Of a stretch of 29,205 bases of DNA, positions 1-26,787 are shown piece by piece. The notes below the pieces were generated by a model, which did no database searches, had not been told where the DNA came from, and was given only the letters and a program-made list of their open reading frames with translations. Position numbers and translations under genes: made by a program. Numbering within the stretch: position 1 is the stretch's first letter; the number at the start of each line of letters is the position of its first letter. This DNA is from a virus: positions 1 through 29,205 of the IMG/VR virus record IMGVR_UViG_3300024520_000367; one strand, written 5' to 3'.

Positions 1-1
1 C

Positions 2-1291
2 ATAGTTCACGTATTAAAGGAGGCCGACGGGCTGAGCGAGGAGATCACGCGGCCAATAGTCGAGAAAGTTCTCGCGAGGGCTGAGATTTCTCAAAATAAC
101 AAGCTTTCGAAAATTGAGAGCCTTGAGATTTTTATTAATTCGAATTACCGACTTAAGCGAAACGAGATAACCAGAGCGATCGAGAGCGGCTCCGAGGAGC
201 TTGATTCGAAATTTTTCAACACGGTGTACATTCGAGCGCGAAAAGAAGTCGATGATAAAATCAAATACGAGGAAATCGACAGGTTAATCGGCTCCGATTT
301 TATAGAGTCGTATAATCCTATAATCGAGTTTTTCGAGAAGAACGCCCACGAGCAGCCGAAAGGCATGATAAAAAAGCTTTGTGACTCAATAGACAGCCCT
401 AATGAATACAAGGATTTATTTATTAAAAAATGGCTCGTCGGAGCTATCTCGGCGGCTCACGGAGTACATTCGCCGCTAATGTTGGCACTAACTGGAGGGC
501 AAAATACGGGTAAAACTCAATTTTTTAGGCGATTAATGCCTGACGAATTAAAATCCTATTACGCCGAGTCGAAGCTCGACGCGGGAAAAGATGACGAAAT
601 ACTCATGTGTCAAAAATGGTTTATTTGCGACGATGAATTCGGAGGAAAGTCGAAAAACGAGGCGAAAAGATTAAAGGAATTGACATCAAAGGACTTTTTT
701 ACGCTTCGTGAGCCGTACGGGCGAAACAATGTCAGATTGAAACGTTTCTCGGTTCTTTGCGGAACGTCTAACGATGAGAAAATCCTAAACGATCCGACAG
801 GAAATCGAAGGATTATTCCCGTAAGCGTGAGAAGTATTGATTTTGATCTGTACAATTCAATCGATAAAAAACTCCTATTAATTGAGGCTTATCATCTGTA
901 CAAAAACGGATTTAAATGGGAAACCTCAGCAGCCGATATTTTAGCACTTTCTGAGGGTACGGATCAATTCGAGCAGGTGGTCATCGAGAAAGAAATGATT
1001 ATGCAATTTTTCAAGCTTCCGAGCCTCTCAAGCGACACCGATCCGGAGGGTATAGTCTACCTTCAAGCGAGCGAAATAAAGTCCGAGATAGAGCGAAAAT
1101 CCTTGCAAAGAATTAACATTTTCAAGCTAACCGCCGAGCTTCTGAGGCTCGGATTTGTCGAGGAGTCTCGAAAAGTTTTCGGAAACACGCTCCGAGTTTA
1201 TCAAATGATACGACTAAACGAAGGCTCTCAGGGTGAGCGCGGGGTGGGTGGTGATGACAACATCAAGCCGATAGATTTGGGAATGTTTTAA
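2..1291 (+). CDS. VapE-like replication NTPase, 5' end outside the window
   Basis: The reading frame is open from the first bases of the window, so the protein is N-terminally truncated; about 429 residues are visible. A P-loop GGQNTGKT lies at 494-517. It is followed by a Walker B-like FICDDEF, then LREPYGRNNVR and the GTSND...LNDPTGNRR block. That order is diagnostic of the virulence-associated E (VapE/VirE) family of helicase-like P-loop NTPases found in phage and island replication modules. The segment before it (FINSNYRLKRNEITRAIE) resembles the linker that joins this domain to an N-terminal primase-like part in Bacteroidota homologues; that part, if present, is upstream of the window. 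A GTG at 224 is an internal codon and not the start. The likely role is origin unwinding or replication initiation in the host cytoplasm. Family assignment is firm; biochemical role is inferred from the family. Confidence 0.9.
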   Translation: MVHVLKEADGLSEEITRPIVEKVLARAEISQNNKLSKIESLEIFINSNYRLKRNEITRAIESGSEELDSKFFNTVYIRARKEVDDKIKYEEIDRLIGSDFIESYNPIIEFFEKNAHEQPKGMIKKLCDSIDSPNEYKDLFIKKWLVGAISAAHGVHSPLMLALTGGQNTGKTQFFRRLMPDELKSYYAESKLDAGKDDEILMCQKWFICDDEFGGKSKNEAKRLKELTSKDFFTLREPYGRNNVRLKRFSVLCGTSNDEKILNDPTGNRRIIPVSVRSIDFDLYNSIDKKLLLIEAYHLYKNGFKWETSAADILALSEGTDQFEQVVIEKEMIMQFFKLPSLSSDTDPEGIVYLQASEIKSEIERKSLQRINIFKLTAELLRLGFVEESRKVFGNTLRVYQMIRLNEGSQGERGVGGDDNIKPIDLGMF

Positions 1292-1317
1292 AAAAACGAC
1301 CTCAAGTAGCTGAGTAT

Positions 1318-1348
1318 AAGCCCCTTAATTGATTTTAAGGGGCTTTTT
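1318..1348 (+). terminator. Intrinsic terminator after the VapE-like gene
   Basis: An 11-bp perfect stem (AAGCCCCTTAA at 1318-1328 with TTAAGGGGCTT at 1335-1345) encloses a 6-base loop and runs into a T tract. It lies 26 bases after the stop codon and ends the upstream replication operon. Confidence 0.88.
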
Positions 1349-1714
1349 ATTGCCTAATATCTTAATGTGGTTTAACTACATACTAAACCCTATATTAACC
1401 CTATATTAACCCTATTTAATAAATATCTTAACTCTATCTTATTATTATTAATTAATACACTTCACAGCTCTTGAGGCAATAAAAGTCTATTTAATAATAT
1501 TTAGATAGAGTACATATTTGAGCATTATAAAAACATAATGTTTTTTATTTTTTTTTCATATTCACTATTTTTTTTTTTACTAATTACAGAAACTAATCAG
1601 ACTTTGATTTCACGAATATGAACACCTATGTAATTATTTATAATTAAGTTACTGATTAACAGCAAGTTATGAAAAAAGTCTCTTTTACTTACATGGTATT
1701 AACAACGGTTTAAG
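1349..1714. other. AT-rich intergenic region, possible origin or control region
   Basis: About 370 bases without a convincing gene on either strand. The stretch is far richer in A+T than the flanking genes. It holds an 11-bp direct repeat (1386-1418), T tracts around 1541-1556 and 1567-1578, a short dyad AAAAACAT/ATGTTTTT around 1529-1545, and the pair ACTCTATCT (1431-1439) and AGATAGAGT (1503-1511). Its position next to the VapE-like replication gene makes a replication origin or a regulatory region plausible, but nothing here proves either. Confidence 0.45.
1386..1418. repeat. Three 11-bp direct repeats (AACCCTATATT type)
   Basis: AACCCTATATT occurs at 1386-1396 and again at 1397-1407 without spacing; a third, partly diverged copy AACCCTATTTA follows at 1408-1418. 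A period of 11 bp, close to one helical turn, would put a bound protein on the same face of the DNA. Iteron-like binding sites are possible. Slippage in AT-rich DNA is the simpler alternative. Confidence 0.7.
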
Positions 1715-1745
1715 TTGTGTTTACATATTTTAAATAGTATATTTG
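1715..1745 (+). promoter_or_regulatory. Bacteroidota-type promoter giving a probably leaderless mRNA
   Basis: TTG at 1715-1717 and TATATTTG at 1738-1745 match the Bacteroidota -33 and -7 (TAnnTTTG) elements with 20 bases between them. The ATG of the next gene is at 1749, only 3 bases after the -7 box, so transcription should begin at or beside the start codon. The spacing and both elements fit the known consensus; activity is inferred. Confidence 0.7.
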
Positions 1746-1748
1746 ATT

Positions 1749-2105
1749 ATGGACAAAAAAGAAAACTCAAGAATAGAAGTTATTGAGCTAAAATTAAAAC
1801 TCTTGGAATTGGATTTTAAGAGTTTTAAAGAGCTAATAACAAGCAAAAAAGAACCTAGAAAAAGGCTGATTGAAAACTCTCATAAATTTAGCGAATATGT
1901 GGAGGCTACGGAGGCTATAATAATAGAAAAAGAGGGGTTTAAACTTATAACCGCAAAAGAAGTGAGCGAAAAACTTAAAGAGATTTTTAATTACGAAATG
2001 AGCCCCAGAATTTGCGGCAAGGTCATGAAAAGCATCTACTCTAAGTACTCGGTAAAAATTGAGGGAAAGCCATTTTATAAATTAACCCTCAAAAATGAAA
2101 TATAA
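1749..2105 (+). CDS. Small protein with a possible winged-helix C-terminus
   Basis: A 118-residue protein that I do not recognise. The first third is Lys/Glu-rich and looks helical. Residues from about 65 (GFKLITAKEVSEKLKEIF) to the end read like helix, helix and beta-hairpin, as in a winged-helix domain; this is a guess from pattern only. A TTG at 1743 is in frame but forms part of the -7 promoter box, so ATG at 1749 is taken as the start. It overlaps the nuclease gene by 11 bases and is first in a four-gene operon. Its codon choice (AGA for arginine, few TCG or CGA) and higher A+T differ from most of the window, which may mark a recently acquired segment. An operon-linked accessory DNA-binding protein is one possibility. 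Confidence 0.75.
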   Translation: MDKKENSRIEVIELKLKLLELDFKSFKELITSKKEPRKRLIENSHKFSEYVEATEAIIIEKEGFKLITAKEVSEKLKEIFNYEMSPRICGKVMKSIYSKYSVKIEGKPFYKLTLKNEI

Positions 2106-2472
2106 ATCAGAACTACAATTACAGGCTATAATTTGGCAATGGTTCTACAACTCATTTCCAGAGTTTAGACTCCCGAAAGTGGGCAATAATCCAAGATGTT
2201 TGCTAATTCACAACTTATTGAACGCTAAATCTCACATAGAAGCCGCTAAGCTGAGCGGTGCGGGGTTAACTAAGGGGTTTCCAGACCTGACACTGTTTGT
2301 ACCTAGTAAAGGCTTTCACGGGCTTCATATTGAGTTGAAATTACAGGGGCAAAAACCGAGAAAGGAACAAATCGAAGTTTTAGAAGCTTTGAAAGCTCAA
2401 AATTATCAAACTTGCGTATGTGATAATCACGAAGACGCTCAGAAAATCATTAAAGAATATTTAGCATTATGA
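2095..2472 (+). CDS. VRR-NUC domain nuclease
   Basis: A 125-residue single-domain protein of the VRR-NUC family, a PD-(D/E)xK nuclease branch common in phages and related to FAN1-type and Holliday-junction-resolving enzymes. The core is visible: GAGLTKGFPDLTLFVP (catalytic Asp64), then HGLHIELKL (Glu80, Lys82), then a conserved Gln at residue 92 in KEQIEVLEAL. The length is that of the stand-alone phage form. The start overlaps the end of the preceding gene by 11 bases, and the stop overlaps the next ATG (ATGA at 2469-2472), so translation is probably coupled. The likely role is branched-DNA processing during replication, recombination or before packaging; the substrate cannot be read from the sequence. 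Confidence 0.88.
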   Translation: MKYKSELQLQAIIWQWFYNSFPEFRLPKVGNNPRCLLIHNLLNAKSHIEAAKLSGAGLTKGFPDLTLFVPSKGFHGLHIELKLQGQKPRKEQIEVLEALKAQNYQTCVCDNHEDAQKIIKEYLAL

Positions 2473-2642
2473 AGTACTTTATAACATTCTCAACAGGTGA
2501 CAGATTCGAAATAAACAAACCTTTAGCCTCTGGTGAGGTCGTTTTCTTCTTAGACATAGCAGGCGTAAAAACATCCGAAACGGTAACAGCGACCATTGAA
2601 ACGGACGTGTTAAACAATCGAATCGAATATACATCCGTATGA
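2469..2642 (+). CDS. 57-residue hypothetical protein
   Basis: A short gene that starts in the ATGA stop/start overlap with the VRR-NUC gene and ends in another ATGA at 2639-2642. The product (MKYFITFSTGDRFEINKPLA...) alternates polar and beta-branched residues and looks like a small beta-rich fold; it has no signal peptide and no cysteines. I do not recognise it. The coupling at its start and its clean reading frame between two replication genes support its being real. A possible role as a small partner of the neighbouring nuclease or exonuclease rests only on position. Confidence 0.7.
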   Translation: MKYFITFSTGDRFEINKPLASGEVVFFLDIAGVKTSETVTATIETDVLNNRIEYTSV

Positions 2643-2651
2643 TTTCTCATA

Positions 2652-2676
2652 CTTGGCTACCAAGGGCCGACGGTCC
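2652..2676 (+). promoter_or_regulatory. Two adjacent dyads in the leader of the exonuclease gene
   Basis: CTTGG-CTA-CCAAG (2652-2664) can fold into a small hairpin, and GGGCCG-A-CGGTCC (2664-2676) is an almost perfect dyad with one G:T pair. Both are GC-rich, unlike the A-rich stretch that follows up to ATG 2717. They may be an RNA structure or operator in the exonuclease leader. If translation instead starts at 2639 they are coding sequence. Confidence 0.35.
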
Positions 2677-2716
2677 AGACATAGAAAATAATCACAACAA
2701 AAAAACCAGTAAATAC

Positions 2717-3292
2717 ATGAAATATCTAATAATTGACATTGAAACGGGAGGATTCTCGAAGTATAAAAACGGAATATGTGAGATCGCTATCGAAGTTCTA
2801 AACGATGAGTTGAAAACCGTCGCATCGTATCAAACATTAATAAAACCGTATGAAAGGAGTGAAAGCGTACTTGAGTATGTCGGTCAGTTGGTGTCGTACA
2901 AAGATGACGCTATGGCGATTCACGGGATCACAATGGAGGAACTTGAATCGGAGGGGGTCACAAAGGAGCAAGTCATAAAAGAAGTGGCGCTACTAATAGA
3001 ATCGATGAGTGATAACATCATAATTGTCGGCCATAACCTCGAAGGCTTCGATTACCCTTGGCTTGTCGAATTCTTCAAAGCGGGCGGCGAGGATATGTTG
3101 AGCCCAATGATAGAATCAAAGATCGACACTTTAAAGCTTTTCAGAGAGTGGAGGGGCAAAGGATCAAAGAACTCCCTTTCTGATTTATCCAGAGAATTCG
3201 GAATAACTAACGAGTCAGAACACCGAGCCGCTGGAGACGTCGGAGCGACCGCCGAACTGCTAAGAATACTAGAAAAAAACGGATTAATTTAG
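2717..3292 (+). CDS. DEDDh 3'-5' exonuclease (DnaQ/RNase T-like)
   Basis: A 191-residue DEDDh exonuclease. Exo I is IDIETGG (Asp7, Glu9), Exo II is GHNLEGFDYPWL (Asp112), and Exo III is EHRAAGDVGAT (His169, Asp174), so all five catalytic residues of the DnaQ-like superfamily are present. Such enzymes remove nucleotides from 3' ends using two metal ions; in phages they act as stand-alone proofreading or DNA-degrading factors. The start is uncertain. ATG 2717 begins directly at the conserved MKYLIIDIETGG and has an A-rich leader typical of this genome. ATG 2639, in an ATGA overlap with the previous gene, would add 26 residues that do not look like part of the family. I prefer 2717. This is the last gene of the operon. 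Confidence 0.88.
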   Translation: MKYLIIDIETGGFSKYKNGICEIAIEVLNDELKTVASYQTLIKPYERSESVLEYVGQLVSYKDDAMAIHGITMEELESEGVTKEQVIKEVALLIESMSDNIIIVGHNLEGFDYPWLVEFFKAGGEDMLSPMIESKIDTLKLFREWRGKGSKNSLSDLSREFGITNESEHRAAGDVGATAELLRILEKNGLI

Positions 3293-3314
3293 TACGACGT
3301 TTTTCGATGTCCTT

Positions 3315-3366
3315 AAAAACCCCTATATTTGGCGAAAAAATCAAAGTCATTTATAGGGCTTTTTCT
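3315..3366 (+). terminator. Intrinsic terminator before the late genes
   Basis: CCCTATA (3321-3327) pairs with TATAGGG (3352-3358). An outer A5/T5 pairing (3315-3319 with 3360-3364) sits across one C-C mismatch, and a T-rich run follows. The loop of 24 bases is long for a terminator, so efficiency may be moderate. It ends the nuclease/exonuclease operon. Confidence 0.65.
3324..3331 (+). promoter_or_regulatory. TAnnTTTG -7 box of a candidate late promoter
   Basis: TATATTTG matches the Bacteroidota -7 consensus exactly. The -33 element is poor (TTTC around 3302). Initiation about 5-8 bases downstream would give a leader of about 60 bases before the small terminase ATG at 3395. The box overlaps the 5' arm of the terminator hairpin, so RNA begun here lacks that arm and cannot form the hairpin. 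Confidence 0.5.
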
Positions 3367-3394
3367 TGTTAATTCTTTTTACTAAATTGGAAGC

Positions 3395-3844
3395 ATGGGA
3401 GGAGGACATAAAAACATTAAACCAGAGGACGGAGTCCCATTTGAAAAAGGGAATCAAGCCGCTGCAAAATGGACCGAGGAGTCAGCGAACCAGCTCGCCG
3501 ACGAAATGCTCGAATGGATAAAGAGCGGCGGACATAGGCAGATTTTTTTTAACGAGTTTTTGCTGATAAACAAGGGCTTATACACTGATTTACCCGCGTA
3601 TTTATCAAGAAAGTACGACAGCTTTCGAAAAAAAATGGACATAGCCAACGAAACTCAGCGCGTTAAACTGCTAAAATACGGCGTCGAGGATACTCTAAAT
3701 CAAGGAATGACAAAATTCGCCTTAATGAATATTCACGGAATGAGTGAAAAAGTATCCACTGACAACAAAAACACCGAGGTAAAAATGACCGGCGCCGAGA
3801 GAAAAGCAAGAAAGGCCGAACTGATCAAAAAACTCAAAAAGTGA
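3395..3844 (+). CDS. Terminase small subunit (putative)
   Basis: A 149-residue, mostly helical, charged protein directly before the large terminase, as expected for the DNA-recognition subunit of the packaging motor. The N-terminus (MGGGHKNIKPEDG, then PFEKGNQAAAKWTEE) and the middle part (GHRQIFFNEFLLINKG, later IHGMSEK) resemble the small terminases of Bacteroidota phages; the C-terminus is very basic (KARKAELIKKLKK). The stop codon overlaps the GTG start of the large subunit by 4 bases, so the two are probably made in a fixed ratio. The role rests on position and general likeness rather than a diagnostic motif. Confidence 0.78.
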   Translation: MGGGHKNIKPEDGVPFEKGNQAAAKWTEESANQLADEMLEWIKSGGHRQIFFNEFLLINKGLYTDLPAYLSRKYDSFRKKMDIANETQRVKLLKYGVEDTLNQGMTKFALMNIHGMSEKVSTDNKNTEVKMTGAERKARKAELIKKLKK

Positions 3845-5310
3845 TAACTGACGAGGAGATCGAGGAGCTTGAGCACTTGCAGCGCCTCGACGATATCGAC
3901 AGCGCTCGCGCCTCTCTTTTGGGGTTTACTGAGTTGACTCTCGAAGGATTCGACCCCTCGGATTTTCACAAAAAATATTACGGAGTACTAGACCAGTTTT
4001 GCGAGGGCAAGATCAAGCGGCTTATTATATCGGTCCCGCCTCAACACGGCAAAAGTGAGGGCTCCTCGCGTCGTTTACCTGCTTACTTATTAGGCATTAA
4101 TCCCGACCTATCGATCGCGCTCGCCTCTTATAATGCCACTTTTGCAAAGAAATTCAATAGGCAAATTCAACGAATAATTGATTCGAAGGAATATGGAGAA
4201 ATTTTTCCAGAAACTTATTTAAACGAGTCAAATGTCGTCGCTGTCTCTGGAAGTTGGCTCAGAAACTCCGAGGAGTTCGAAATCGTTGATAAAAAGGGCT
4301 CGTTTAAGGCTGTAGGCGTCGGAGGCGGCTTAACGGGTAATAAGGTCGACATTATGATAATGGACGATCTTTACAAAGATTATCAAGACGCGACCAGCTC
4401 AACGATAAGCGAATCGGTTTGGGATTGGTACACGACCGTAGTACGAACCCGTTATCACAACGATTCGCAAGAGTTAATAGTGTTTACTCGTTGGGATGAA
4501 AACGACCTCGTAGGGCGTTTAGAAAAAAAAGGGCTCGTAGTTGATTACAACGGAGACGCGAAAACGATCGAAAAATTAGAGTCTAATCAGTTCCTAAAAA
4601 TCAATTTCGAAGCGATCAAAGAATCGGAGCCGACAGAGTTCGACGATAGAAAAAAAGGCAAGCCTCTTTGGGGTAAGCGTCACAGCGTCGAAAAATTAGA
4701 GGAAACAAGAGCGCTCGACCCTTCAAAATTTTCTGCTCTTTTCCAAGGTAATCCAAGGACAAAGGAGGGTCTAATGTACCGAGATTTTGACACATACGAA
4801 CAATTACCCAAGATTAAAATCGTAAAATCGTATACTGATACGGCTGACCAAGGCAAAGACTCGCTATGTTCAATCGTTTACGGCGTACCTCTGGACAAGG
4901 AAGATAAAAAGCTGTATTTAATCGACGTACTTTTCACTCAGAAAGGGATGGAAACGACCGAGCCGCTAACCGCTCAGATGCTGGAGCGTAACGGATCGCG
5001 TCAGAATATGATAGAATCAAATAACGGCGGGCGAGGATTCGCTCGAAATATTGACCGATTAACAAGTCCAGCCGTGAACATAAAGTGGTTTCATCAAAGC
5101 CAGAACAAATTCGCGAGGATTTTCTCGAATAGCGCGAGCGTAAACAGTACTTTCGTTATGCCTAAAGAATGGGCGGTAAAATATAAGGATTTTTACGACT
5201 CGATAAGCGATTACAAAAAGGACGGATCGACCAAACACGACGACGGGCCCGACTGTTTAACGGGTTGTTACGAAGTAGAATTCGCAAAAAGAAAATTTTT
5301 TGTACATTGA
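3841..5310 (+). CDS. terL: Terminase large subunit (packaging ATPase/nuclease)
   Basis: A 489-residue TerL. ATPase motifs: Walker A SVPPQHGKSE (about residues 64-73), Walker B IMIMDD (171-176) and coupling motif VFTRWDENDL (214-223). The C-terminal RNase H-like nuclease shows YTDTADQGKD (Asp333, Asp336), a middle IESNNGGRGFA, and HDDGPDCLTG near the end. Length and motif order are complete for this family. The start is GTG, overlapping the stop of the small subunit (GTGA). The enzyme drives DNA into the prohead and cuts it at the end of packaging; whether by headful or at fixed ends cannot be told from the sequence. Confidence 0.95.
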   Translation: MITDEEIEELEHLQRLDDIDSARASLLGFTELTLEGFDPSDFHKKYYGVLDQFCEGKIKRLIISVPPQHGKSEGSSRRLPAYLLGINPDLSIALASYNATFAKKFNRQIQRIIDSKEYGEIFPETYLNESNVVAVSGSWLRNSEEFEIVDKKGSFKAVGVGGGLTGNKVDIMIMDDLYKDYQDATSSTISESVWDWYTTVVRTRYHNDSQELIVFTRWDENDLVGRLEKKGLVVDYNGDAKTIEKLESNQFLKINFEAIKESEPTEFDDRKKGKPLWGKRHSVEKLEETRALDPSKFSALFQGNPRTKEGLMYRDFDTYEQLPKIKIVKSYTDTADQGKDSLCSIVYGVPLDKEDKKLYLIDVLFTQKGMETTEPLTAQMLERNGSRQNMIESNNGGRGFARNIDRLTSPAVNIKWFHQSQNKFARIFSNSASVNSTFVMPKEWAVKYKDFYDSISDYKKDGSTKHDDGPDCLTGCYEVEFAKRKFFVH

Positions 5311-5321
5311 TATGCAAGCCT

Positions 5322-5354
5322 TTTGTCGTTTATTTTTCGTATTATTGATATTTG
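5322..5354 (+). promoter_or_regulatory. Candidate promoter upstream of the portal gene
   Basis: TTTG at 5322-5325 and GATATTTG at 5347-5354 (7 of 8 to TAnnTTTG) are separated by 21 bases in the 63-base gap between terL and portal. A second partial box, CACATTTG, lies at 5360-5367. The gap is AT-rich and one of the few sizeable ones in the late region. Confidence 0.45.
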
Positions 5355-5373
5355 TTGAACACATTTGTAATTA

Positions 5374-6603
5374 ATGGGCGTATTTACTAAAATCGGCGAT
5401 TTGCTTAAAAGCACTCAAAAAGAAGTGATCGACCAAAAGAACACTTTTAAAAACGATTTACCTCGCGATTATTTACCGTCGAATTGGCATTTTAAGCGAA
5501 TAACCGACGAATTACTCGCGTCTTATGGTTTCGCTACGAATGCAGATGTTTACGCGATGATTTCGATGATCGCTTTTAAGTCGTCAGAAATTCCAATAAA
5601 TTTTTTAAGGCCAAATTATAAAGGCGAGCAAGTTATCGACACTAGCTCGGACGCTTACGGACTACTTTACGAGGATAAAGAGCAGGGCTATAAGTCCAAA
5701 ATCATCGAAATGATGACAAACATCCTGACAACGGGCGATTTATACATCGAGAAAGTGAATTCATTCTCAGGAAGTACTCCAGAGCGGCTGAGCGTTCTAA
5801 GGTCCGCAAGCGTTAAAACAGAGTTAAACGCGAACGGAGACACTATAGCACTAATGTACTGCGAAAATAGCAAGTATAGACGTATTGATTACGATAATGT
5901 TATACATATTGAACTATACGACCCTCTTTATAACCCGTACAACAAAGGTTTAAGCCCGTTGCAAGCGGGCTATCAAGTTTTAACGGCTTCAAATGACTTG
6001 CAGCTCGCGGCGTCTTCTCTTTACAAAAATCAAGGGTCGAGCGTTTTACTCAGCGACAACTCTGGAAGCATGAACGGCGATGATGAGTCCAAAGATTTAC
6101 AGAGAGCTTTAAACTCAAGAATCGGAGGCGCTGGAAAGGCTGGACAAGTTACCGTAACAAGCGCCGATGTTGCGCTCCATAATTTGGGCATGAGTTCGCG
6201 AGATTTGGAACTGATAAAGTCACAGCCTATTAAATTGCGCCAAATGTGCAATATTTACGGGGTCGATTCATCTTTTTTCAATGATCCGGACAATAAAACG
6301 TATAATAACAGGAAAACAGCCGAAAAAGCGCTTATTAATAACGGCGTAAAACCAAAATTTGAGCTAATAATCGAAGGTATCGAGCGAGATTTCAGAAAGG
6401 CCGAGAATGTATCTCTGGAATTCGACTATAGCGGCCTTGATTGCTTACAAGAGGACCAACGAGAGAGAGCCGAGAAAGATGTCATCGTATCGAATGGTAT
6501 TATAGGCGTTTTACAGTCGGGACTTTTACCCGCTCAACAAATACAAGTTTTGGTCGATGTTTGGGGCTATACTATTGAGGACGCTAAAAAAATCGTATTT
6601 TAG
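5374..6603 (+). CDS. Portal protein, HK97 type
   Basis: A 409-residue protein, typical in length for HK97-like portals. Characteristic parts are the early helix VYAMISMIAFKSSEIPINFL, the central strand-rich region that includes GDLYIEKV, NVIHIELYDPLYNPY followed by KGLSPLQAGYQVLTASNDLQ (the clip/stem region), and SFFNDPDNKTYNNRKTAEKA near the C-terminus. The portal forms the dodecameric ring at the head vertex through which TerL packages DNA and to which the tail joins. Neighbours on both sides (terL, then prohead protease and capsid) are in the canonical order. A small gene starts 3 bases after its stop. Confidence 0.92.
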   Translation: MGVFTKIGDLLKSTQKEVIDQKNTFKNDLPRDYLPSNWHFKRITDELLASYGFATNADVYAMISMIAFKSSEIPINFLRPNYKGEQVIDTSSDAYGLLYEDKEQGYKSKIIEMMTNILTTGDLYIEKVNSFSGSTPERLSVLRSASVKTELNANGDTIALMYCENSKYRRIDYDNVIHIELYDPLYNPYNKGLSPLQAGYQVLTASNDLQLAASSLYKNQGSSVLLSDNSGSMNGDDESKDLQRALNSRIGGAGKAGQVTVTSADVALHNLGMSSRDLELIKSQPIKLRQMCNIYGVDSSFFNDPDNKTYNNRKTAEKALINNGVKPKFELIIEGIERDFRKAENVSLEFDYSGLDCLQEDQRERAEKDVIVSNGIIGVLQSGLLPAQQIQVLVDVWGYTIEDAKKIVF

Positions 6604-6606
6604 AGT

Positions 6607-6711
6607 ATGGAAACCGTTAAAACGAAAAATATTGACCCCAAAAAAGTGAATGTTAAATCCTTAGAGGATTCAATAAAGCAGAAAAGCAGCGATAAACCCG
6701 TGAAAAAATGA
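6607..6711 (+). CDS. 34-residue peptide between portal and protease
   Basis: A short frame, METVKTKNIDPKKVNVK..., beginning with ATG 3 bases after the portal stop and ending in an ATGA overlap with the protease start at 6708. The product is lysine-rich with no hydrophobic segment. I do not recognise it. Tight coupling on both sides argues that it is translated. It may serve only to carry ribosomes across to the protease gene, or be a small head-assembly peptide. Confidence 0.5.
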   Translation: METVKTKNIDPKKVNVKSLEDSIKQKSSDKPVKK

Positions 6712-7514
6712 AAAGTATCGAATTCGGAAATTATGATTTTGGTAGTAAAAAGGAGCTTTTTAAATCTCTTTTTGAGAAACAAGATCTAATAATCGACCTC
6801 AAAAAATCGCAGGTTTACAAATCTTGTGATAAGGGCGGGCTCAAAATTCTGCACTCCAAAACATTGAACTCGGAGAAATCTATCGACGGGGCAAAAGAGG
6901 GGTTTATTTATCCGATAATTTCGACTACTAGGTTTTTAGACAGTCACAAAGACGTTCATTTCGACGGGTGTTTCAATAAGACAATTAAGGATCAACAGGG
7001 TAAAATAAAATATATCCTTGATCATCAGCTCAATTATGACAGCGTGATCGCGTGGCAAAAGGACGTGAAACTCGTAAAGCAGTTGATCGACTGGTCGACA
7101 GTCGGAAAGGATTTCGACGGACAAACCGAGGCGCTGATCTTTGAGATTTCAAAGGACAACATAAAGCGAAAGGACGTCCTTTTAGACATCGAGAATAAGG
7201 TCGAGGAGTTCGAGAATTCGATAAGAATGGTTTATCACAAAATCGTTTTAGGAATGAATTCGGACCATAAGGAACACAAAAAAAACAAGACTTATTTCGA
7301 TAAAAAAATCGATAGTATCGCTAACAAAGACGAGGTTCTCGAAGACGGGTATTTTTGGGGGGTCGAGGAGTTAGGGATACATAAAGAAGGGAGTTTAGTT
7401 GTTGCTGGAGGTTCTAACTCAGCAACTTCTATTTTTGAAGCCGTCGGAGACACTTCGAAGAAAATCGAGCCGTCGAGAGACACTCAAAAAGTTAAGAGAA
7501 AAAGATATTTATAA
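6708..7514 (+). CDS. Prohead protease (HK97 / S78-like, putative)
   Basis: A 268-residue protein in the expected place between portal and major capsid. The pattern fits the S78 herpesvirus-type assemblin fold: GFIYPIISTTRFLDSHKDVH followed by FDGCFNKTI matches the family's N-terminal strand and D/V..GCF block. His106 (ILDHQLN) is a candidate catalytic His and Ser171 (ENSIRMVY) a candidate nucleophile. GYFWGVEELGIHKEGSLVVA resembles the late E-x-S-x-V strand. About 60 residues precede the domain and a basic tail follows. It would cleave the delta domain of the capsid protein and then itself during head maturation. Catalytic residues are assigned by pattern and spacing. Confidence 0.78.
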   Translation: MKSIEFGNYDFGSKKELFKSLFEKQDLIIDLKKSQVYKSCDKGGLKILHSKTLNSEKSIDGAKEGFIYPIISTTRFLDSHKDVHFDGCFNKTIKDQQGKIKYILDHQLNYDSVIAWQKDVKLVKQLIDWSTVGKDFDGQTEALIFEISKDNIKRKDVLLDIENKVEEFENSIRMVYHKIVLGMNSDHKEHKKNKTYFDKKIDSIANKDEVLEDGYFWGVEELGIHKEGSLVVAGGSNSATSIFEAVGDTSKKIEPSRDTQKVKRKRYL

Positions 7515-7531
7515 TTTCAAAAATTAAGAAA

Positions 7532-8836
7532 ATGAAAAAAGAATGGATTAACGCCGACGGTATGTTCCAATACCTAAAAGCGCAACAGTTAGAGGATTTA
7601 GCCGAGGAGCTACACGCCGAGTACAAAGAAGCTGAGGCGGCTCACATTAACAGCCGAATCAAAGCACTTGAGGGCGCTGATTCTAACGATCACACAAAAG
7701 AGATCGAAGAACTAAAGCAAAGCCTTTTTAAGCTTCAAACAGAGCAATTTGACACGATGAAAAACAACATCGTAGCAATGGGCAAAGAGTTGGCATCGAT
7801 CAAAGAAGCTGGAAAAGAGGTCGATATGACTCCTTTTAAAACTGCTATTGTAGGATTCGAAGACAGCTTGAAAGCGTTAAAAACTGGCGGCTCGTCTGTC
7901 GAGTTTGAGATAAAGGCAGATGTGACCTACGCAGATTTAACGCATACGGGTCAACTTGATCAAGTGGCGGCTGGAATTTCTGACGCTCCAAAAAAGAGAG
8001 TGCGTTTATTCGAGCTATTCAGAAAGATTCCGATGACTACGGAAACTTATTCCTATCTATCGCAGAAAGATAGCGTTTTACGTGATGCTCAAGGCGTGGC
8101 AAAGTGCGCGAAAGGTTTTAGCTCAACAACTAAAGAGGAGATCGAAATCGTACGTATCAACGACGTAAAAATCAAGGACGACGTCGATTTGTGTCGCGAT
8201 TACATGGACGATTTCTCATGGGTCGAAGCTCGATACCGTTTGTTATTGTCTGACTCTGTAATGTTCGAAATGGACCGCCAACTCCTTTTAGGATTGAACA
8301 CGGGGACATCAATGAATTCGATCGACGCTGTATCCTCTGAATTTTCAGCGCTTAACGTTGACGCGCCAGTCGGAGCGACTATCGAAAAAGCAAACATGGC
8401 CGATTTAATCCTAGCTATGGCTACTCAAGTAGATGTACTGGGTAAATTAGCATCTTTCAATGTTAATTCCGCGGTAGTTAACAAGCTTAATTGGTTCATA
8501 TTAGTTGAATCTAAAAAGGACACTCAAGGGCGTTATCTTGATCCTCGTATATCGAAGATCAACGGAAATTACTACGTAGGTGATATTTTGGTGATTCCAT
8601 TGCCTGACGTAGCTGAGAATACGCTTTATGTGATGGACTCGACGAAAGGATCTATCTTAGATAGAAAGAAGCAAACTTTGAGGATCTCAACTGAGAACGG
8701 GACAAACTTTGCAGATGAATTCATCACAATGATGAGTACAGTCCGCGCTCAGTTCTTAGTCGAGCAGAATCACGCGAATGCGTTTATGAAGTGTAGCGAT
8801 GTTGCAACAGCAGTTTCAGCGATTAACAAACCATAA
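7532..8836 (+). CDS. Major capsid protein, HK97 fold
   Basis: A 434-residue protein after the protease. Residues 1 to about 110 are Glu/Lys/Ala-rich and predicted coiled coil, as in the delta domain that scaffolds HK97-type proheads and is later removed. The rest has the major-capsid pattern: E-loop region around KKRVRLFELFRKIPMTTETY, spine helix SWVEARYRLLLSDSVMFEMD followed by RQLLLGLNTG, A-domain VVNKLNWFILVESKKDTQGR, then ILVIPLPDVAENTLYVMD and a C-terminal FLVEQNHANAFMKC. An A-rich leader (TTTCAAAAATTAAGAAA) precedes the ATG without any Shine-Dalgarno sequence, as expected for a highly expressed gene in Bacteroidota. No decoration protein gene is obvious next to it apart from the small Cys-cluster protein. 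Confidence 0.92.
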   Translation: MKKEWINADGMFQYLKAQQLEDLAEELHAEYKEAEAAHINSRIKALEGADSNDHTKEIEELKQSLFKLQTEQFDTMKNNIVAMGKELASIKEAGKEVDMTPFKTAIVGFEDSLKALKTGGSSVEFEIKADVTYADLTHTGQLDQVAAGISDAPKKRVRLFELFRKIPMTTETYSYLSQKDSVLRDAQGVAKCAKGFSSTTKEEIEIVRINDVKIKDDVDLCRDYMDDFSWVEARYRLLLSDSVMFEMDRQLLLGLNTGTSMNSIDAVSSEFSALNVDAPVGATIEKANMADLILAMATQVDVLGKLASFNVNSAVVNKLNWFILVESKKDTQGRYLDPRISKINGNYYVGDILVIPLPDVAENTLYVMDSTKGSILDRKKQTLRISTENGTNFADEFITMMSTVRAQFLVEQNHANAFMKCSDVATAVSAINKP

Positions 8837-8847
8837 TTTTAGAAATA

Positions 8848-9129
8848 ATGAAATACCTAAAATTTAAAAAGGATTATTTGGTTTATTCAAAGGGCGAAAT
8901 GCTATGTGTCGAAAAATCGAATCTTGACAGGCTCGTTGCTATTGACGTAGCCGAGGAGATCAAGAAGGATGAATTCGACAAAGCGAATAACGCCAAAATA
9001 GTGGCCAAATTGAAAGCTTTAAAAGAGGCGAAAAAATCCGATTGCTCAGGCGATTGTGATGAGTTCGCCGATTGCGAAAGCTGCAAAGAGGCGGCAAAGA
9101 AAAAAGCTAAAAAAATCCGTGTTAAATAA
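8848..9129 (+). CDS. Small head-region protein with a four-cysteine cluster
   Basis: A 93-residue protein directly after the capsid gene. The N-terminal half (MKYLKFKKDYLVYSKGEML, then VEKSNLDRLVAIDVAEEI) resembles the short beta-barrel-like proteins often found after phage capsid genes. The C-terminal part carries Cys66, Cys70, Cys76 and Cys79 (C-x3-C-x5-C-x2-C) between lysine-rich segments, a plausible metal site. The stop and the next ATG overlap by one base (TAATG). I do not recognise the family; a head decoration or head-completion role is suggested only by position. Confidence 0.72.
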   Translation: MKYLKFKKDYLVYSKGEMLCVEKSNLDRLVAIDVAEEIKKDEFDKANNAKIVAKLKALKEAKKSDCSGDCDEFADCESCKEAAKKKAKKIRVK

Positions 9130-9647
9130 TGGGGTTTCCACTTACTAAATTATCAGACTTTGAGGTGGGGCGCTTTGCCCTCCCTCAAAGTTCTATTACT
9201 TCAAAAAACTTAATTTCTATCATCGGAGACGTTGAGGAGGTCGAGCTTTGCAATTTATTGGGCTTCGAATTGTCGGAGCTTTTAATCTCAGATTTAGACG
9301 GGACTAATACTCCAGTAAATCAGAGATTCACGAAAATATTTTACAAATTCTTTGAGAAATCGAGTATTTGCAGCGAAAAAATGGTGAGCGCTGGAATTGT
9401 CGACATGCTCAAAGGTTTTGTTTTTTTCTATTACGGTAGAACGTTAAACGTTAGGCTCTCAATGAATGGAGCCATAACAGCCGAAAGCGAGAACGCCGAA
9501 AGTAGGCCAGCTAATCATAGCCAATTACGGGCGAATTATAATAAATCAGTAAAAACTTTTAAGGCTATTCAGGCTTATGTCAAAGAAAACGAGGACATTT
9601 ATCCCGAATTTGACGGTATTGAAAAGGACTATTTAACGATCATTTAA
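9129..9647 (+). CDS. Head-tail connector-like protein
   Basis: A 172-residue, mainly helical protein. It occupies the place of the gp6/gp15-type adaptor that joins the portal ring, just after the capsid genes. Features such as EVELCNLLGFELSELLISDL, GIVDMLKGFVFFYYGRTL, and the C-terminal RANYNKSVKTFKAIQAYVKE and FDGIEKDYLTII resemble connector proteins of Bacteroidota phages (I recall a DUF6712-type family; a profile search is needed to confirm). It overlaps the previous stop by one base. A structural role in the neck is likely; the exact ring is not determined. Confidence 0.68.
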   Translation: MGFPLTKLSDFEVGRFALPQSSITSKNLISIIGDVEEVELCNLLGFELSELLISDLDGTNTPVNQRFTKIFYKFFEKSSICSEKMVSAGIVDMLKGFVFFYYGRTLNVRLSMNGAITAESENAESRPANHSQLRANYNKSVKTFKAIQAYVKENEDIYPEFDGIEKDYLTII

Positions 9648-9648
9648 G

Positions 9649-10191
9649 GTGTTTGATTTATCGATTTTAGACAATTATCTGTATATCACTAATTCATTCA
9701 GCGATAACTTGACTGATAGATCGGCGTCTTTAATCGAGATCGTAAAAAAAAACGCCTCAAGTACAACGTATAATGTCAGGTACAACGGAGACACAATCGA
9801 CCAGCTTTGCGATGTCCCTTGGACCGACTTCACTCTCGACGGCGTACCCTTCGCCAATCAACAGGCTTTTGAAGACTGGAAAAACCTGAATACAGGCATT
9901 AATTCAGGCGAATCTTTGCAAGGACTACTAACTGAGGAGAACGTCACGCAGCCGCTATCCAACGGCGTAAATACTAGTGTTCCCGCTGGATTTAGAACGG
10001 TATTAATAACCTCTTTGTCAGGTATTAACGTGATAAATTTCGGTAACCCTTCAAATTTCCAGATCGGAAACGGGAGAAGGCCAGACGGGACCGTATTGTC
10101 AGGCGAACAAATGAATTATAAAAACGGGATTTTGCCAGCCATAACGATAACGGGCGGAACTTGGCAGTGGATAGGATTATCTCCTCTTTAA
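9649..10191 (+). CDS. Hypothetical structural protein
   Basis: A 180-residue protein starting with GTG one base after the connector stop; no ATG lies near the N-terminus in this frame. The sequence is beta-rich (SLIEIVKKNASSTTYNVRYN, WTDFTLDGVPFANQQAFEDW) and ends in short strands rich in Gly, Asn and Thr (GINVINFGNPSNFQIGNGRR). That composition is typical of fibre or decoration proteins rather than of enzymes. It forms a pair with the next, fibre-like gene. I do not recognise the family. It could be a neck or head appendage protein. Confidence 0.65.
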   Translation: MFDLSILDNYLYITNSFSDNLTDRSASLIEIVKKNASSTTYNVRYNGDTIDQLCDVPWTDFTLDGVPFANQQAFEDWKNLNTGINSGESLQGLLTEENVTQPLSNGVNTSVPAGFRTVLITSLSGINVINFGNPSNFQIGNGRRPDGTVLSGEQMNYKNGILPAITITGGTWQWIGLSPL

Positions 10192-10194
10192 AAT

Positions 10195-11196
10195 ATGGCT
10201 TTAGGATTCACAAGCGGACAATCAGACGCGGCAGCCGATTATCAATACGACACGAGAGCCGAGGCGCTGCTCAATACCTCAGATTTTGAGGTAAACGACG
10301 TAATCGTAATAAATAATTCGACAGGAGTTTGGCCTTTCAACTATTTGGCTGGCGATTATCGTTGGAACGGACTCGAATTAGTCGCGTACAATAAAGATCT
10401 AAAAGATAGGGTAATAGCTATCGAGTCGACTGTCGACGGGCTGAGCTCAGCCTCTCACGGTCACCCAAACAAATCTATTTTAGATGCTATCACTCAGCCT
10501 ATTGTCGACTCTTGGAACGCCGCCGCTCTTTGGGTAACCACTAACGGCGCGAACGTTCTCACCTCTTTAGCTGAAAAATTAGACAAAGGAGGGTATGCTG
10601 GGAACGCTCAAGATCTGAAGGATGAAATCGACGCTATCCAGACGGGCGGCAATAGCGGCCCCGTTGACATACATGATGATGTTGATTTATATCAAGGAGC
10701 GATTCCCAAAAACGGATGGATAGCCAAATATGTTGGCGGTCAGCTAACCCTTTGTATGAGTGAGTTTTTTTTCTACAAAGGGCCTCCAGTTATAAACGTA
10801 CTTGAGGATATACCATTACCCTCTACGCCGATAACATCTTCGTTTTTCTTTCAGAGGGTGGGCGTTTACAAGATCACTATAAATGTATCTTACTCAATAG
10901 ATTCTAAAAAAGAAAGCGTCGTAATAGTACCCAAAATTAGCGGCTTAGTATTAGCTAATATTGCAGGGGGCGAAATGCTAAGGCACGAACACTCGAACGA
11001 CAAAGGGAATGACAATGACGGGCGGGGGACTGATCAGAAAAACACCGCGACCAAAATATACTATTTTAACAACACGACCATATCAAACAAAAATATAAAA
11101 GTCGATCATTTCGGAACAAAAAACGGAAAAGAAGCGGCTTTGTGGGATGTTTTCATCTCAGTTGAGGAAATATTTACGCCAATTATTGTAACTTAA
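10195..11196 (+). CDS. Fibre-like appendage protein
   Basis: A 333-residue protein. Residues 88-99 read HGHPNKSILDAI, a motif seen in phage fibre proteins, followed about 35 residues later by LDKGGYAGNAQDLKDEIDAI, another fibre-linker type sequence. The N-terminus holds FEVNDVIVINNSTGVWPFNY and YRWNGLELV, like a small receptor or carbohydrate-binding module. The C-terminal half (about 165-333) is beta-rich with a His/Asp/Asn-rich loop (HEHSNDKGNDNDGRGTDQ) and resembles a C1q/TNF-like head domain in general pattern. It lies in the neck/head region rather than with the distal tail genes, so a head or collar fibre is possible. Family placement is tentative. Confidence 0.7.
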   Translation: MALGFTSGQSDAAADYQYDTRAEALLNTSDFEVNDVIVINNSTGVWPFNYLAGDYRWNGLELVAYNKDLKDRVIAIESTVDGLSSASHGHPNKSILDAITQPIVDSWNAAALWVTTNGANVLTSLAEKLDKGGYAGNAQDLKDEIDAIQTGGNSGPVDIHDDVDLYQGAIPKNGWIAKYVGGQLTLCMSEFFFYKGPPVINVLEDIPLPSTPITSSFFFQRVGVYKITINVSYSIDSKKESVVIVPKISGLVLANIAGGEMLRHEHSNDKGNDNDGRGTDQKNTATKIYYFNNTTISNKNIKVDHFGTKNGKEAALWDVFISVEEIFTPIIVT

Positions 11197-11203
11197 AGGA
11201 ATT

Positions 11204-11731
11204 ATGTACGCTGAAATCTATACACCGTCAATTCATTTCACTAGCTCCGGAGGAGCTGTAAATTATGAAGCTCTGAGAATTGAGATTCTAGCAAGCGCCG
11301 TCGACGGATTAGTCGCGGTCAAAGGATTCGACGGCGATGTTTACATCAAATTAACAACAAAACTCGATGCGACTGATAAAACGGCTCTCGATGATATCAT
11401 CGCAGCTCACGACGGATTACCCGCGAGGACTACGAAGTCTTTACAAGAAAAAAGGACTAGCATACTCGATGATCTGGTTTTATCTGCTCACTTTCACCCT
11501 GTTTTAAAAAATTTTCCAGACGAAATAACTGCGTACCTCACGTACATCGACGACGCCTTGAACGCGTGGAGACGAGATGGAAATCATAATATTTTAGTCG
11601 CTCGGATTGCTGAGAACGCGGTTGATGTAAACGATCCGAATTACACGTATTTAAATAGAGTCGTAAACACTGACGGCGTAAAAACGTACGAATATTTGAT
11701 TGCTGGAATACCTACAACCCCTTATATCTAA
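11204..11731 (+). CDS. Hypothetical structural protein
   Basis: A 175-residue soluble protein between the fibre-like gene and three small membrane proteins. The first half has strands (MYAEIYTPSIHFTSSGGAVN, GLVAVKGFDGDVYIKL); the second half is helical with YLTYIDDALNAWRRDGNHNI. No cysteines and no signal peptide. The stop overlaps the next ATG (TAATG at 11729-11733). I do not recognise it. By position it is a neck or tail-completion candidate. Confidence 0.65.
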   Translation: MYAEIYTPSIHFTSSGGAVNYEALRIEILASAVDGLVAVKGFDGDVYIKLTTKLDATDKTALDDIIAAHDGLPARTTKSLQEKRTSILDDLVLSAHFHPVLKNFPDEITAYLTYIDDALNAWRRDGNHNILVARIAENAVDVNDPNYTYLNRVVNTDGVKTYEYLIAGIPTTPYI

Positions 11732-11961
11732 TGAGAAGTACTGTGTTAGGATCGATTATGATAGTAATAGGAATAGCGCTGTTTTGTTATTCCTATTTCT
11801 TCATGCATAAAGACATTGAGAATATGTCGTTTGAATCCTTCTTCATTGGAGGTTTTGCGGTGGTAGGCATTATCTTCGTCGCGGGCAAGGATAAATGGTT
11901 GGACAAAGTTGTAAATCATTATTTCCACAAAGACAAAAAGGATCAGAATGGAGGGAATTAA
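11731..11961 (+). CDS. Small protein with two membrane segments (holin-like)
   Basis: A 76-residue protein with hydrophobic helices at about residues 5-24 and 36-52, a short polar turn between them, and a highly charged, lysine-rich tail (GKDKWLDKVVNHYFHKDKKD). That is the size and layout of class II (two-segment) holins. It overlaps the previous gene by one base and the next by 14 bases. The lysis enzyme genes are 14 kb downstream, so assignment as holin rests on topology alone; a membrane protein acting in DNA entry or superinfection exclusion is also possible. Confidence 0.68.
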   Translation: MRSTVLGSIMIVIGIALFCYSYFFMHKDIENMSFESFFIGGFAVVGIIFVAGKDKWLDKVVNHYFHKDKKDQNGGN

Positions 11962-12247
11962 ACAGGTGTTGATAATCCCTATACTCGCTATCTTCTCAAT
12001 ACTCGATGAATTTATCGAGGCGATGACATCAAGCGCCGCCACTGTGGAGACTATCGGATTTATAGAGAGGATCAAGGGCTTTTTGACTTGGGAGGAGTTC
12101 GCGCTCGAAGTTGTAATATTTCCGATTATGGGATTTTTTACCATTCGATTACTTACAAGATTGAGGAAAAAAAATAAAAGCGTCGAGGATTTGAGGCAGA
12201 CAATCGACGAGGCAAACGAGGCGCTAAAAAAATTGGAAAAAAAATGA
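11948..12247 (+). CDS. Membrane protein with a C-terminal coiled coil
   Basis: A 99-residue protein with a hydrophobic stretch at residues 7-18 (VLIIPILAIFSI), a second at about 53-70 (LEVVIFPIMGFFTIRLLT), then a basic patch and a heptad-like tail (SVEDLRQTIDEANEALKKLE). It overlaps the genes on both sides (14 bases before, ATGA after). I do not recognise the family. Together with the preceding and following genes it forms a coupled set of three membrane proteins. A two-component holin/antiholin system is one explanation. Confidence 0.65.
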   Translation: MEGIKQVLIIPILAIFSILDEFIEAMTSSAATVETIGFIERIKGFLTWEEFALEVVIFPIMGFFTIRLLTRLRKKNKSVEDLRQTIDEANEALKKLEKK

Positions 12248-12738
12248 TAAGACTTTTAAAATGGTCCCTATTAGCAGCGATTGCGACGGTTGTTTTTGTT
12301 ATCACTGGAGCTCTCGGCTTTGTAATTGGTCAGGTCAAATATTTGACAATGAGAGGCAGTAAGGGGTATATCAGATACTTGATCGATATGATCAACGGCG
12401 TTTTTACTGGAGCCTCTTATATTATCGAGGGTTACGCTTTAGGGATAGACATCACAGCAAACGGCGCCGGCGGCGAGGGGCTGGAATGGCTGTTAACCAA
12501 AAACAGGAAACAAGATACGATCACATTAATGGGATCGCCTGACGCGACGATCAGCGCGGGAATTGGAGACATGAAAGCAAAGGGATTTTTAAACAGTCGA
12601 TTCGGACGAATGATTAACAAAGCTTTGAATATTTCATTTAATCAAAAGGATCACGGGGCCTACGCACTCCAGTACTACAAAGCGAGAAAAAAAATTCGGG
12701 CCTCAATGGAGCCCTTTTTCAAAAAGAGAAAAAAATGA
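12244..12738 (+). CDS. Single-pass membrane protein, unknown
   Basis: A 164-residue protein with a long hydrophobic segment at about residues 7-30 (WSLLAAIATVVFVITGALGF) near the N-terminus and no lipobox or clear cleavage site, so it is probably membrane-anchored. The rest is soluble and basic, with GAGGEGLEWLLTKNRKQDTI and a strongly basic C-terminus (KARKKIRASMEPFFKKRKK). It is coupled by ATGA junctions to the genes on both sides. I do not recognise it. It may act with the two membrane proteins before it. Confidence 0.65.
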   Translation: MIRLLKWSLLAAIATVVFVITGALGFVIGQVKYLTMRGSKGYIRYLIDMINGVFTGASYIIEGYALGIDITANGAGGEGLEWLLTKNRKQDTITLMGSPDATISAGIGDMKAKGFLNSRFGRMINKALNISFNQKDHGAYALQYYKARKKIRASMEPFFKKRKK

Positions 12739-13418
12739 TAAGAGAGTACGATATCGTCGGGATTTTGAGGAAGCTGATAAGCGAAATGCAGCTCGTTATC
12801 GAGGTTAAAAGCTCGGTCGATAATACAGACGGTACTTTCACTATTCAAACTTGTAATACTCAGTATTTAAATGAGTGCTCTATTTTGAGCATAAACGGAA
12901 ACGATTATTTTGTCAGTTCCATCGAAAAAGATTCGGAGGTAACTCTCACGGGCTCGCCAGTGTTAACAGATGATTTCATTTTACCCGCTCCTCTTTTCAT
13001 TCCTGACACGCCTCAAGGCGCGAATAGTCAATTGATAGACAGAAAAACAGAAATAAATCGACATCCTTTCGTATGGCTGCTCGAAAATTTCCCTACTAAC
13101 TACGATTTTAGCGGGGCCGCCAATGTTGCTGAGCCGAGAATCAGACTCTTTTTTCTTAACGCAGCAATCGAAACCGAATGGCTGGAGGACGAACACCGCA
13201 AAAATTGCATTGATCCTATGATCAATTTAACGGACGCTTTTCTCTTGGATTTAGTTAAAAAAGTTTCTGGAAAACTGGAAAAATTCACGATTACTAATCG
13301 GATTAGGTTCGGGACAATCAAAGGTGACAAAAAAATATTAAACGAGGATTTATCGGGCGTCGAGCTGGATATCGTTATCCCTGTAAAAAAATGGTCGATT
13401 AAGTGCGTTGAATGTTAG
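12735..13418 (+). CDS. Putative tail completion/terminator protein
   Basis: A 227-residue soluble protein between the neck/membrane genes and the tail tube candidate. The N-terminal part is a small beta domain (DNTDGTFTIQTCNTQYLNE, SILSINGNDYFVSSIEKD). A helical and beta middle section follows (HPFVWLLENFPTNYDFSG, RIRLFFLNAAIETEWLEDEH), and the C-terminus ends with a Cys pair in IKCVEC. Size and location fit a tail terminator or neck protein that caps the tail tube. I see no diagnostic motif, so the role is positional. It starts in an ATGA overlap and is followed by the largest gap in the tail cluster so far (56 bases). Confidence 0.65.
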   Translation: MIREYDIVGILRKLISEMQLVIEVKSSVDNTDGTFTIQTCNTQYLNECSILSINGNDYFVSSIEKDSEVTLTGSPVLTDDFILPAPLFIPDTPQGANSQLIDRKTEINRHPFVWLLENFPTNYDFSGAANVAEPRIRLFFLNAAIETEWLEDEHRKNCIDPMINLTDAFLLDLVKKVSGKLEKFTITNRIRFGTIKGDKKILNEDLSGVELDIVIPVKKWSIKCVEC

Positions 13419-13474
13419 CACTCAAATGATTATATTACAATCAAAATTATTTCACTAAATAAAATCAAAATAAA

Positions 13475-14446: not shown

Positions 14447-14450
14447 TCCT

Positions 14451-14597
14451 ATGAAAATCAACGAATCGACAGGAGTAAACCCCGAATATTGGGGTGAGAA
14501 AACTCAAAAGGAATTCCTTGATAAATTCAAGGGGAAAGCAAGCAAAGAGAAGTTGATCGAGGTATACAAAGCCTGTAGGAAATCAGCTCGTAAGTAA
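14451..14597 (+). CDS. 48-residue basic protein after the tail tube gene
   Basis: A short gene starting with ATG 4 bases after the tail tube stop and ending just before an intrinsic terminator. The product begins MKINESTGVNPEYWGEK and is lysine-rich and helical in its second half (KEKLIEVYKACRKSARK). I do not recognise it. The short spacing, good start codon and the terminator placed right after its stop support its being a real gene co-expressed with the tail tube protein. A small tail chaperone or DNA-binding peptide is possible. Confidence 0.68.
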   Translation: MKINESTGVNPEYWGEKTQKEFLDKFKGKASKEKLIEVYKACRKSARK

Positions 14598-14607
14598 TTG
14601 CTAAATA

Positions 14608-14637
14608 AAAAGCCTGACTAAATAGTCGGGCTTTTTT
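14608..14637 (+). terminator. Intrinsic terminator inside the tail gene cluster
   Basis: AAAAGCCTGACT (14608-14619) pairs with AGTCGGGCTTTT (14624-14635) through one T:G pair, with a 4-base loop and a run of six Ts. It separates the tail tube and 48-residue genes from the tape-measure group and may limit read-through. Confidence 0.85.
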
Positions 14638-14651
14638 GGTATATTGGAGGG

Positions 14652-15095: not shown

Positions 15096-15108
15096 TTCGC
15101 TTTACAAA

Positions 15109-26698: not shown

Positions 26699-26701
26699 GC
26701 T

Positions 26702-26709
26702 CAAATATA
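26702..26709 (-). promoter_or_regulatory. Minus-strand -7 box, near-leaderless HTH gene promoter
   Basis: On the minus strand TATATTTG matches TAnnTTTG and is followed after 3 bases by the HTH gene ATG, the same arrangement as at 1738-1751. A clear TTG at the -33 position is missing. Transcription should start close to the start codon. Confidence 0.6.
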
Positions 26710-26755
26710 GTAAAAAAATAATTAAGTAAAATATTTTTATGTCAAATCTTTTTAC

Positions 26756-26763: not shown

Positions 26764-26787
26764 AAGAAACAAAAACAATTTAAAATT

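Follow-up and report, generated by a model that had tools for sequence, protein, structure and literature searches.

The window, that is the whole stretch of DNA analysed here, comprises the 29,205 bases of a virus record, both ends of which interrupt open frames. Its terminase is nearest to those of phages of Porphyromonas, Bacteroides, Parabacteroides, Alistipes and Elizabethkingia (phage records; 42-49% identity among the matches listed), which indicates that the host very probably belongs to Bacteroidota; the phage itself is a siphophage. A second record, IMGVR_UViG_3300024518_002247 (L002), is 99.99% identical to window positions 3356-15306 over 11,952 bases. Two promoter-like regions of the window place a candidate -7 box three bases before an ATG start codon: one is directed rightward into ORF A, the other leftward into ORF B, and their features are collected in Table 1. 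In what follows, N3, N4 and so on give the number of bases between the box and the start codon.

Table 1. Coordinates of the genes and candidate control elements at the two sites
Feature	Position	Strand	Remarks
ORF A	1749-2105	+	118 aa plus stop; homologue in contig L003 (35%)
Candidate -33 element TTG	1715-1717	+	20 nt 5' of the -7 box; equal TTG-N20 spacing in L003 (2080-2082)
Candidate -7 box TATATTTG	1738-1745	+	exact TAHHTTTG match; the sole exact plus-strand box within 1292-1748
Predicted transcription start	1749 (A of ATG)	+	T at -1; a pyrimidine there is common to the N3 and N4 classes
Terminator-like hairpin	1318-1345	+	3' of the primase/helicase gene, 5' of the first promoter
ORF B	26519-26698	-	59 aa plus stop; modelled winged helix, MerR/excisionase type
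ORF B2	26325-26522	-	65 aa plus stop; start overlaps the stop of B (ATGA)
Candidate -7 box TATATTTG of leftward operon	26709-26702	-	exact TAHHTTTG match
Predicted transcription start	26698 (A of ATG)	-	AGC before ATG, pyrimidine at -1
Candidate -7 box TACATTTG of divergent SSB-like gene	26756-26763	+	N24 to ATG 26788; leadered comparison

Genes and promoter-like elements at the two sites

The earlier note had described the first site as a box ending 3 bases before ATG with TTG 20 bases upstream of the box, and both letters and coordinates bear this out: positions 1715-1751 read TTG, 20 nt, TATATTTG, ATT and then the ATG of ORF A. Its claim that the same arrangement recurs on the minus strand holds for the box and its spacing, since 26709-26696 reads TATATTTG, AGC and then ATG (26698-26696), but not for the upstream element, as TTG is absent at 17-23 nt from this second box. 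Of the leadered genes with which the note contrasts these sites, the SSB-like gene alone has an exact box within 80 nt, at N24; the capsid and tail-tube genes show no such box even when one mismatch is allowed.

The layout is rare in the window. The pattern TATATTTGNNNATG (TATATTTG-N3-ATG) gives 2 matches in the whole window vs 0.02 expected, and TAHHTTTGNNNATG gives the identical 2 matches vs 0.15 expected, with none of 100 shuffles reaching 2 in either case; both patterns were picked after the sites were known. The other three of the five occurrences of TATATTTG lie away from any start codon: one is inside a gene (18987), one is antisense to a gene (minus strand, 16978), and the one at 3324-3331 overlaps the stem of a terminator-like fold (3315-3365; z -3.0, 2 of 200 shuffles equally good). 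The last is consequently a doubtful promoter for the terminase small-subunit gene, and the fold that it overlaps is absent from the list of the consensus terminator scan. A hairpin and T run also precede the terminase small-subunit gene of L003. Two further layouts in the window each come right after a hairpin and T run: TAAATTGG-N4-ATG at 3383-3395, ahead of the terminase small-subunit gene, and at 14640-14652, ahead of another gene, TATATTGG-N4-GTG. They may represent a variant form of leaderless promoter in this phage. The idea that TTTG is generally replaced by TTGG in an N4 variant was discarded, the four sets surveyed below giving 1 case, which is expected from the window's own site.

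The primase/helicase gene ends at 1291 and is separated from ORF A by a gap of 457 bases (1292-1748), within which the terminator-like hairpin lies. The fold of 1310-1360 has a free energy of -18.3 kcal/mol (z -4.4); the consensus terminator scan of 1-5500 is by itself not above chance, because it returns 3 sites vs 5.4 in shuffles. Besides being AT-rich, the gap harbours two tandem copies of AACCCTATATT and an inverted repeat of 88%; it is possibly an origin or operator region. In L003, a gap of 472 bases occupies the matching position. Further downstream, ORF A carries in-frame TTG at codons 19 and 21.

At the second site, leftward ORF B adjoins the rightward SSB-like gene. Both divergent boxes fall inside an imperfect inverted repeat at 26685-26780, with 35-nt arms that are 74% complementary, and the divergent promoters may be mutually exclusive.

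In the model of ORF A (mean pLDDT 67), a long helix forms the N-terminal part and a winged helix the C-terminal part; its top Foldseek matches are Fur-like winged helices, all of them weak (best E 0.07). For ORF B (mean pLDDT 71), the best matches are BldC (E 0.08) and a mycobacteriophage Xis (E 0.18), both likewise weak. In family scans covering 10 of the window's proteins and the L003 homologue of A, neither ORF A, ORF B nor this homologue matched a family above the curated cut-offs. Weak matches linked A to PHROG 23306 (E 0.005), B to PHROG 57 (E 0.07) and the homologue in L003 to DDRGK, at an E of 0.002 that is below cut-off. ORF B2 has no family match, and a test against the lambda repressor HTH family gave none for A or B, with lambda Cro ranking 25th among the fold matches of B (TM 0.27). 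Neither the single-protein scan of viral contigs nor the phages yielded a homologue of ORF A, and the alignment scan of viral contigs gave one match, the L003 contig. Scans with the primase in genome contigs and with the SSB-like protein in viral contigs returned no additional homologues. A and B are probably small DNA-binding proteins, for which a regulatory role is proposed; confidence in the folds is moderate, and every fold match is weak (E of at least 0.07).

The L003 homologue of ORF A is preceded by TTG-N20-TATTATTG-N3-ATG, a box with 1 mismatch relative to TATATTTG. In shuffles of the L003 upstream region, the chance of TTG at N20 together with a box of at most one mismatch at N3 is 0.00045, a figure that concerns one homologue only and a mismatched box. 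When the two upstream regions are aligned, an alternative shift is nearly equal (22 vs 24 of 45).

Spacing between box and start codon in Bacteroidota phages and hosts

According to a study of F. johnsoniae, the Bacteroidota primary sigma recognizes a -7 box of the form TAnnTTTG, refined in that species to TAHHTTTG (PMC6847099). Distances between exact TAHHTTTG matches and the ATG start of called ORFs were surveyed in five sets of Bacteroidota phage and host DNA: 55 IMG/VR loci (863 ORFs), 20 cultured Bacteroidota phages (1444), a genome set made of the best 80 of 177 terminase loci (1925 ORFs; some contigs come from bins assigned to other phyla) and two samples of host chromosomes (1096 and 1120 ORFs). 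ORFs were called crudely, with ATG starts only and at least 45 aa, and the calls were compared with the depositors' starts in two phages: in P12024S and P2559S, the N4/N5 starts called at 19644, 12432 and 4961 match the deposited ones. ORFs with fewer than 80 bases upstream and duplicates by identical flanks were left out of the counts. Pooled counts over the five sets retain one ORF per identical first 12 residues and take N0-2 and N8-12 as background; per-family counts, made over four sets, retain one per family and distance, with N0-2 and N7-12 as background. Counting the patterns in 13 host genomes with no filtering by ORF gave too much noise, and these numbers were discarded.

The pooled counts from N0 to N14 are 0, 4, 4, 11, 49, 18, 14, 13, 7, 4, 6, 2, 3, 8 and 7, with a background of 3.75 per distance; bins and tests were chosen post hoc, and homologues that differ in their first residues count separately. 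A sharp peak is evident at N4 (49 vs 3.75 expected). Counted per family in the first four sets, N4 gives 14, 7, 6 and 12, and N3 gives 3, 1, 1 and 3; the genome terminase loci, taken by themselves, show a weak N4 excess (6 vs 2.0, P 0.017). None of six scrambled or reversed control motifs produced an N4 peak in the first four sets. N3 is a minor class, with 11 vs 3.75 (P 0.0017), or 9 without the window (P 0.015), a count in which one gene, yicC by our assumption, enters twice. This is the gene that in two Pedobacter genomes keeps TATCTTTGCACATG at N3 despite differing DNA upstream. Several host ORFs with the N4 layout were also noted in the host chromosome loci L213-L272; from their protein starts, we take them to resemble PanD, LpxD, RuvB, MnmE and UvrB.

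A pyrimidine stands at -1 in 11/11 N3 genes (P 0.001) and in 39/49 N4 genes (P 0.00009), vs 52.1% of 5327 ORFs; a slight excess is found at N15-30 too (155/262, P 0.026). Bacterial RNA polymerase commonly begins at a pyrimidine-purine step, so that +1 is most naturally placed on the A. The N4 spacing agrees with the published 4-5 nt and fits a leaderless start because 4 nt put +1 on the A of ATG; given a peak that is absent with the control motifs, leaderless geometry is, at the level of these sequence counts, a real class in both phages and hosts, consistent with the mapped minorities in F. psychrophilum and B. thetaiotaomicron given below.

Among the relatives, the layout is distributed over genes of diverse function. 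TAACTTTG-N4-ATG precedes all 7 terminase small-subunit homologues of at least 87% identity, which represent about three distinct upstream sequences; of the distant homologues, 5 have no box and one more is truncated. The N3 box before the terminase small-subunit gene of L120 is not kept, none of its 9 other homologues having an exact box within 60 nt. The layout also occurs before a 60-aa family (4/4), a baseplate hub family (3/9), the head maturation protease family (N4 or N5 in 2/16), the NinG/Rap nuclease and methyltransferase genes of L111, and an adaptor gene. In a head-tail family, N4-N6 is found in 3/6 members and N18 in the other 3/6, which indicates that a leader is easily gained and lost. 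The suggestion of the earlier note that leaderless and leadered genes may form two expression classes is thus not supported beyond the window and is rejected as a rule: relatives carry the layout ahead of genes as different as those for terminase, protease, baseplate, adaptor, methyltransferase and nuclease, one family has members of both kinds, and with leaders so readily exchanged a functional split does not follow.

Counted once per family and distance, spacings of N3-N6 make up 21/71 box-gene pairs in the IMG/VR relatives (19/68 without the window), compared with 21/207 in the first host sample, 15/140 in cultured phages and 13/168 in the genome terminase loci (Fisher P 0.0002, 0.0009 and 0.00003, respectively). 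By these counts, the N3-N6 enrichment is specific to this group of relatives and is not a trait of the phylum's phages in general. It is conceivable, though we advance it only tentatively, that the related phages have made leaderless initiation a regular promoter architecture; if so, phages of hosts without Shine-Dalgarno signals could drive major genes without a 5' leader. Compensation by A-rich codons after the leaderless ATG was considered and dropped: A content at +4 to +21 shows no consistent difference between N3-6 and N15-40 genes in four sets; no P value falls below 0.054, and the two smallest belong to differences of opposite sign.

Interpretation of the N3 sites

The explanation that we favor, and regard as reasonably probable, is that both sites are Bacteroidota primary-sigma promoters starting RNA on the A of the start codon. 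The primary sigma would read the TAnnTTTG -7 boxes and RNA polymerase would begin at the A of ATG, so that the resulting mRNAs would carry a 5'-terminal AUG. Ribosomes would engage this AUG in the manner of leaderless mRNAs elsewhere, no A-rich leader being needed. Each promoter would head a short unit: to the right, ORF A and, after it, a gene for a VRR-NUC nuclease; to the left, B with B2. Promoter activity, the exact start base and translation from the terminal AUG are all inferred from sequence, and +1 is likely to lie on A at N3 sites. The earlier note's reading of the geometry as leaderless is thus supported in kind, by the N4 peak with its lesser N3 class, the pyrimidine at -1 and the layout in L003, but N3 is not the modal spacing.

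It is this spacing that gives rise to the first alternative. In the F. johnsoniae report, 4-5 nt separate box and start, and the -33 element is weak (PMC6847099). N3 adjoins the modal N4 and is mildly enriched (11 vs 3.75), yet it falls below the published spacing by one base, and initiation on A requires the shortest workable distance; with 4-5 nt, +1 would fall on the U or G of AUG, the first codon would be lost, and a real promoter would act for genes further along or for a start inside the gene, such as the in-frame TTG codons of ORF A. The N4 peak fits this reading to the extent that it places +1 on A at 4 nt. On the other side, the N3 counts exceed background, all 11 N3 genes have a pyrimidine before A, as expected if A is +1, and the presumed yicC gene retains N3 in both Pedobacter genomes. 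A start on U or G is considered unlikely.

A second alternative, which we also judge improbable, is that transcription of the genes begins at promoters lying further upstream, the N3 boxes being due to chance or having another role in an AT-rich control region, such as an operator or replication origin. The repeats and inverted repeats in 1292-1748 are compatible with it, as are three one-mismatch boxes 175-228 nt 5' of ORF A. None of these three, however, has TTG at 17-23 nt, and no exact box occurs from 1738 back to 1292; the hairpin after the preceding gene, the chance expectation of 0.02 and the L003 layout also speak against it. Before ORF B, a one-mismatch box, TATTTTTT, lies 14 nt 5' of the ATG with TTG 22 nt further up, and two further one-mismatch boxes lie at 71 and 82 nt. 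The first of these boxes, together with the boxless homologues of the L120 gene, strengthens the upstream-promoter reading and weakens the explanation by starts on A. Finally, it is very unlikely that ORF B is not a gene and the minus-strand match merely a promoter-like box: its 59 aa, with no family match at E 0.001 and no homologue in viral contigs or phages, would permit this, but the winged-helix model is plausible, the ATGA overlap links B to B2, and an exact box stands at start distance.

Relation to known leaderless systems

Shine-Dalgarno pairing is little used in Bacteroidota, and the way in which their ribosomes select start codons is still being worked out. Compact, testable promoters for leaderless translation in Bacteroidota would be provided by phage genes predicted to begin with a 5'-terminal AUG, and the rule TAHHTTTG, 3-6 bases, ATG could aid in placing start codons and promoters in unannotated phages. 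A literature search at title and abstract level, from which subscription journals were mostly missing, found, among the papers listed, no report of leaderless mRNAs in Bacteroidota phages. Leaderless mRNAs are already known in Bacteroidota as a minority, and the present sites would be a phage case.

The mapped leaderless share in F. psychrophilum is 5.5%, with the box at -12 to -5 (PMC9723704), and about 3.7% of the 5' UTRs of B. thetaiotaomicron are under 10 nt (PMC7366714). The two sites resemble the leaderless mRNAs of Flavobacterium psychrophilum and Bacteroides thetaiotaomicron in the TAnnTTTG box, in a predicted start at or near the start codon and in belonging to a minority class. They differ in being sequence predictions, whereas the bacterial starts were mapped by RNA-seq, in lying in a phage, and in showing N3 rather than the modal N4.

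Lambda cI is a classic leaderless phage mRNA. In phage PY54, cI and cro are reported as leaderless, both starts having been mapped by RACE (PMC4488713). As in PY54 cI/cro and lambda cI, small genes for predicted DNA-binding regulators would be read from AUG near a divergent promoter; PY54, however, is a lambda-related phage with its own promoters, and A and B have winged-helix models and no cI/Cro family match.

A broader survey detected leaderless genes in 1/37 Bacteroidetes/Chlorobi genomes using Pribnow-like boxes, and gives averages of 19.2% of genes for Actinobacteria and 39.4% for Deinococcus-Thermus, again with such boxes (PMC3160421). As in those groups, a box close to the start codon, which is ATG at both sites, would replace the leader (PMC3160421). 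Unlike in Actinobacteria and Deinococcus-Thermus, the leaderless share of Bacteroidota amounts to a few percent, and the box is TAnnTTTG instead of Pribnow-like.
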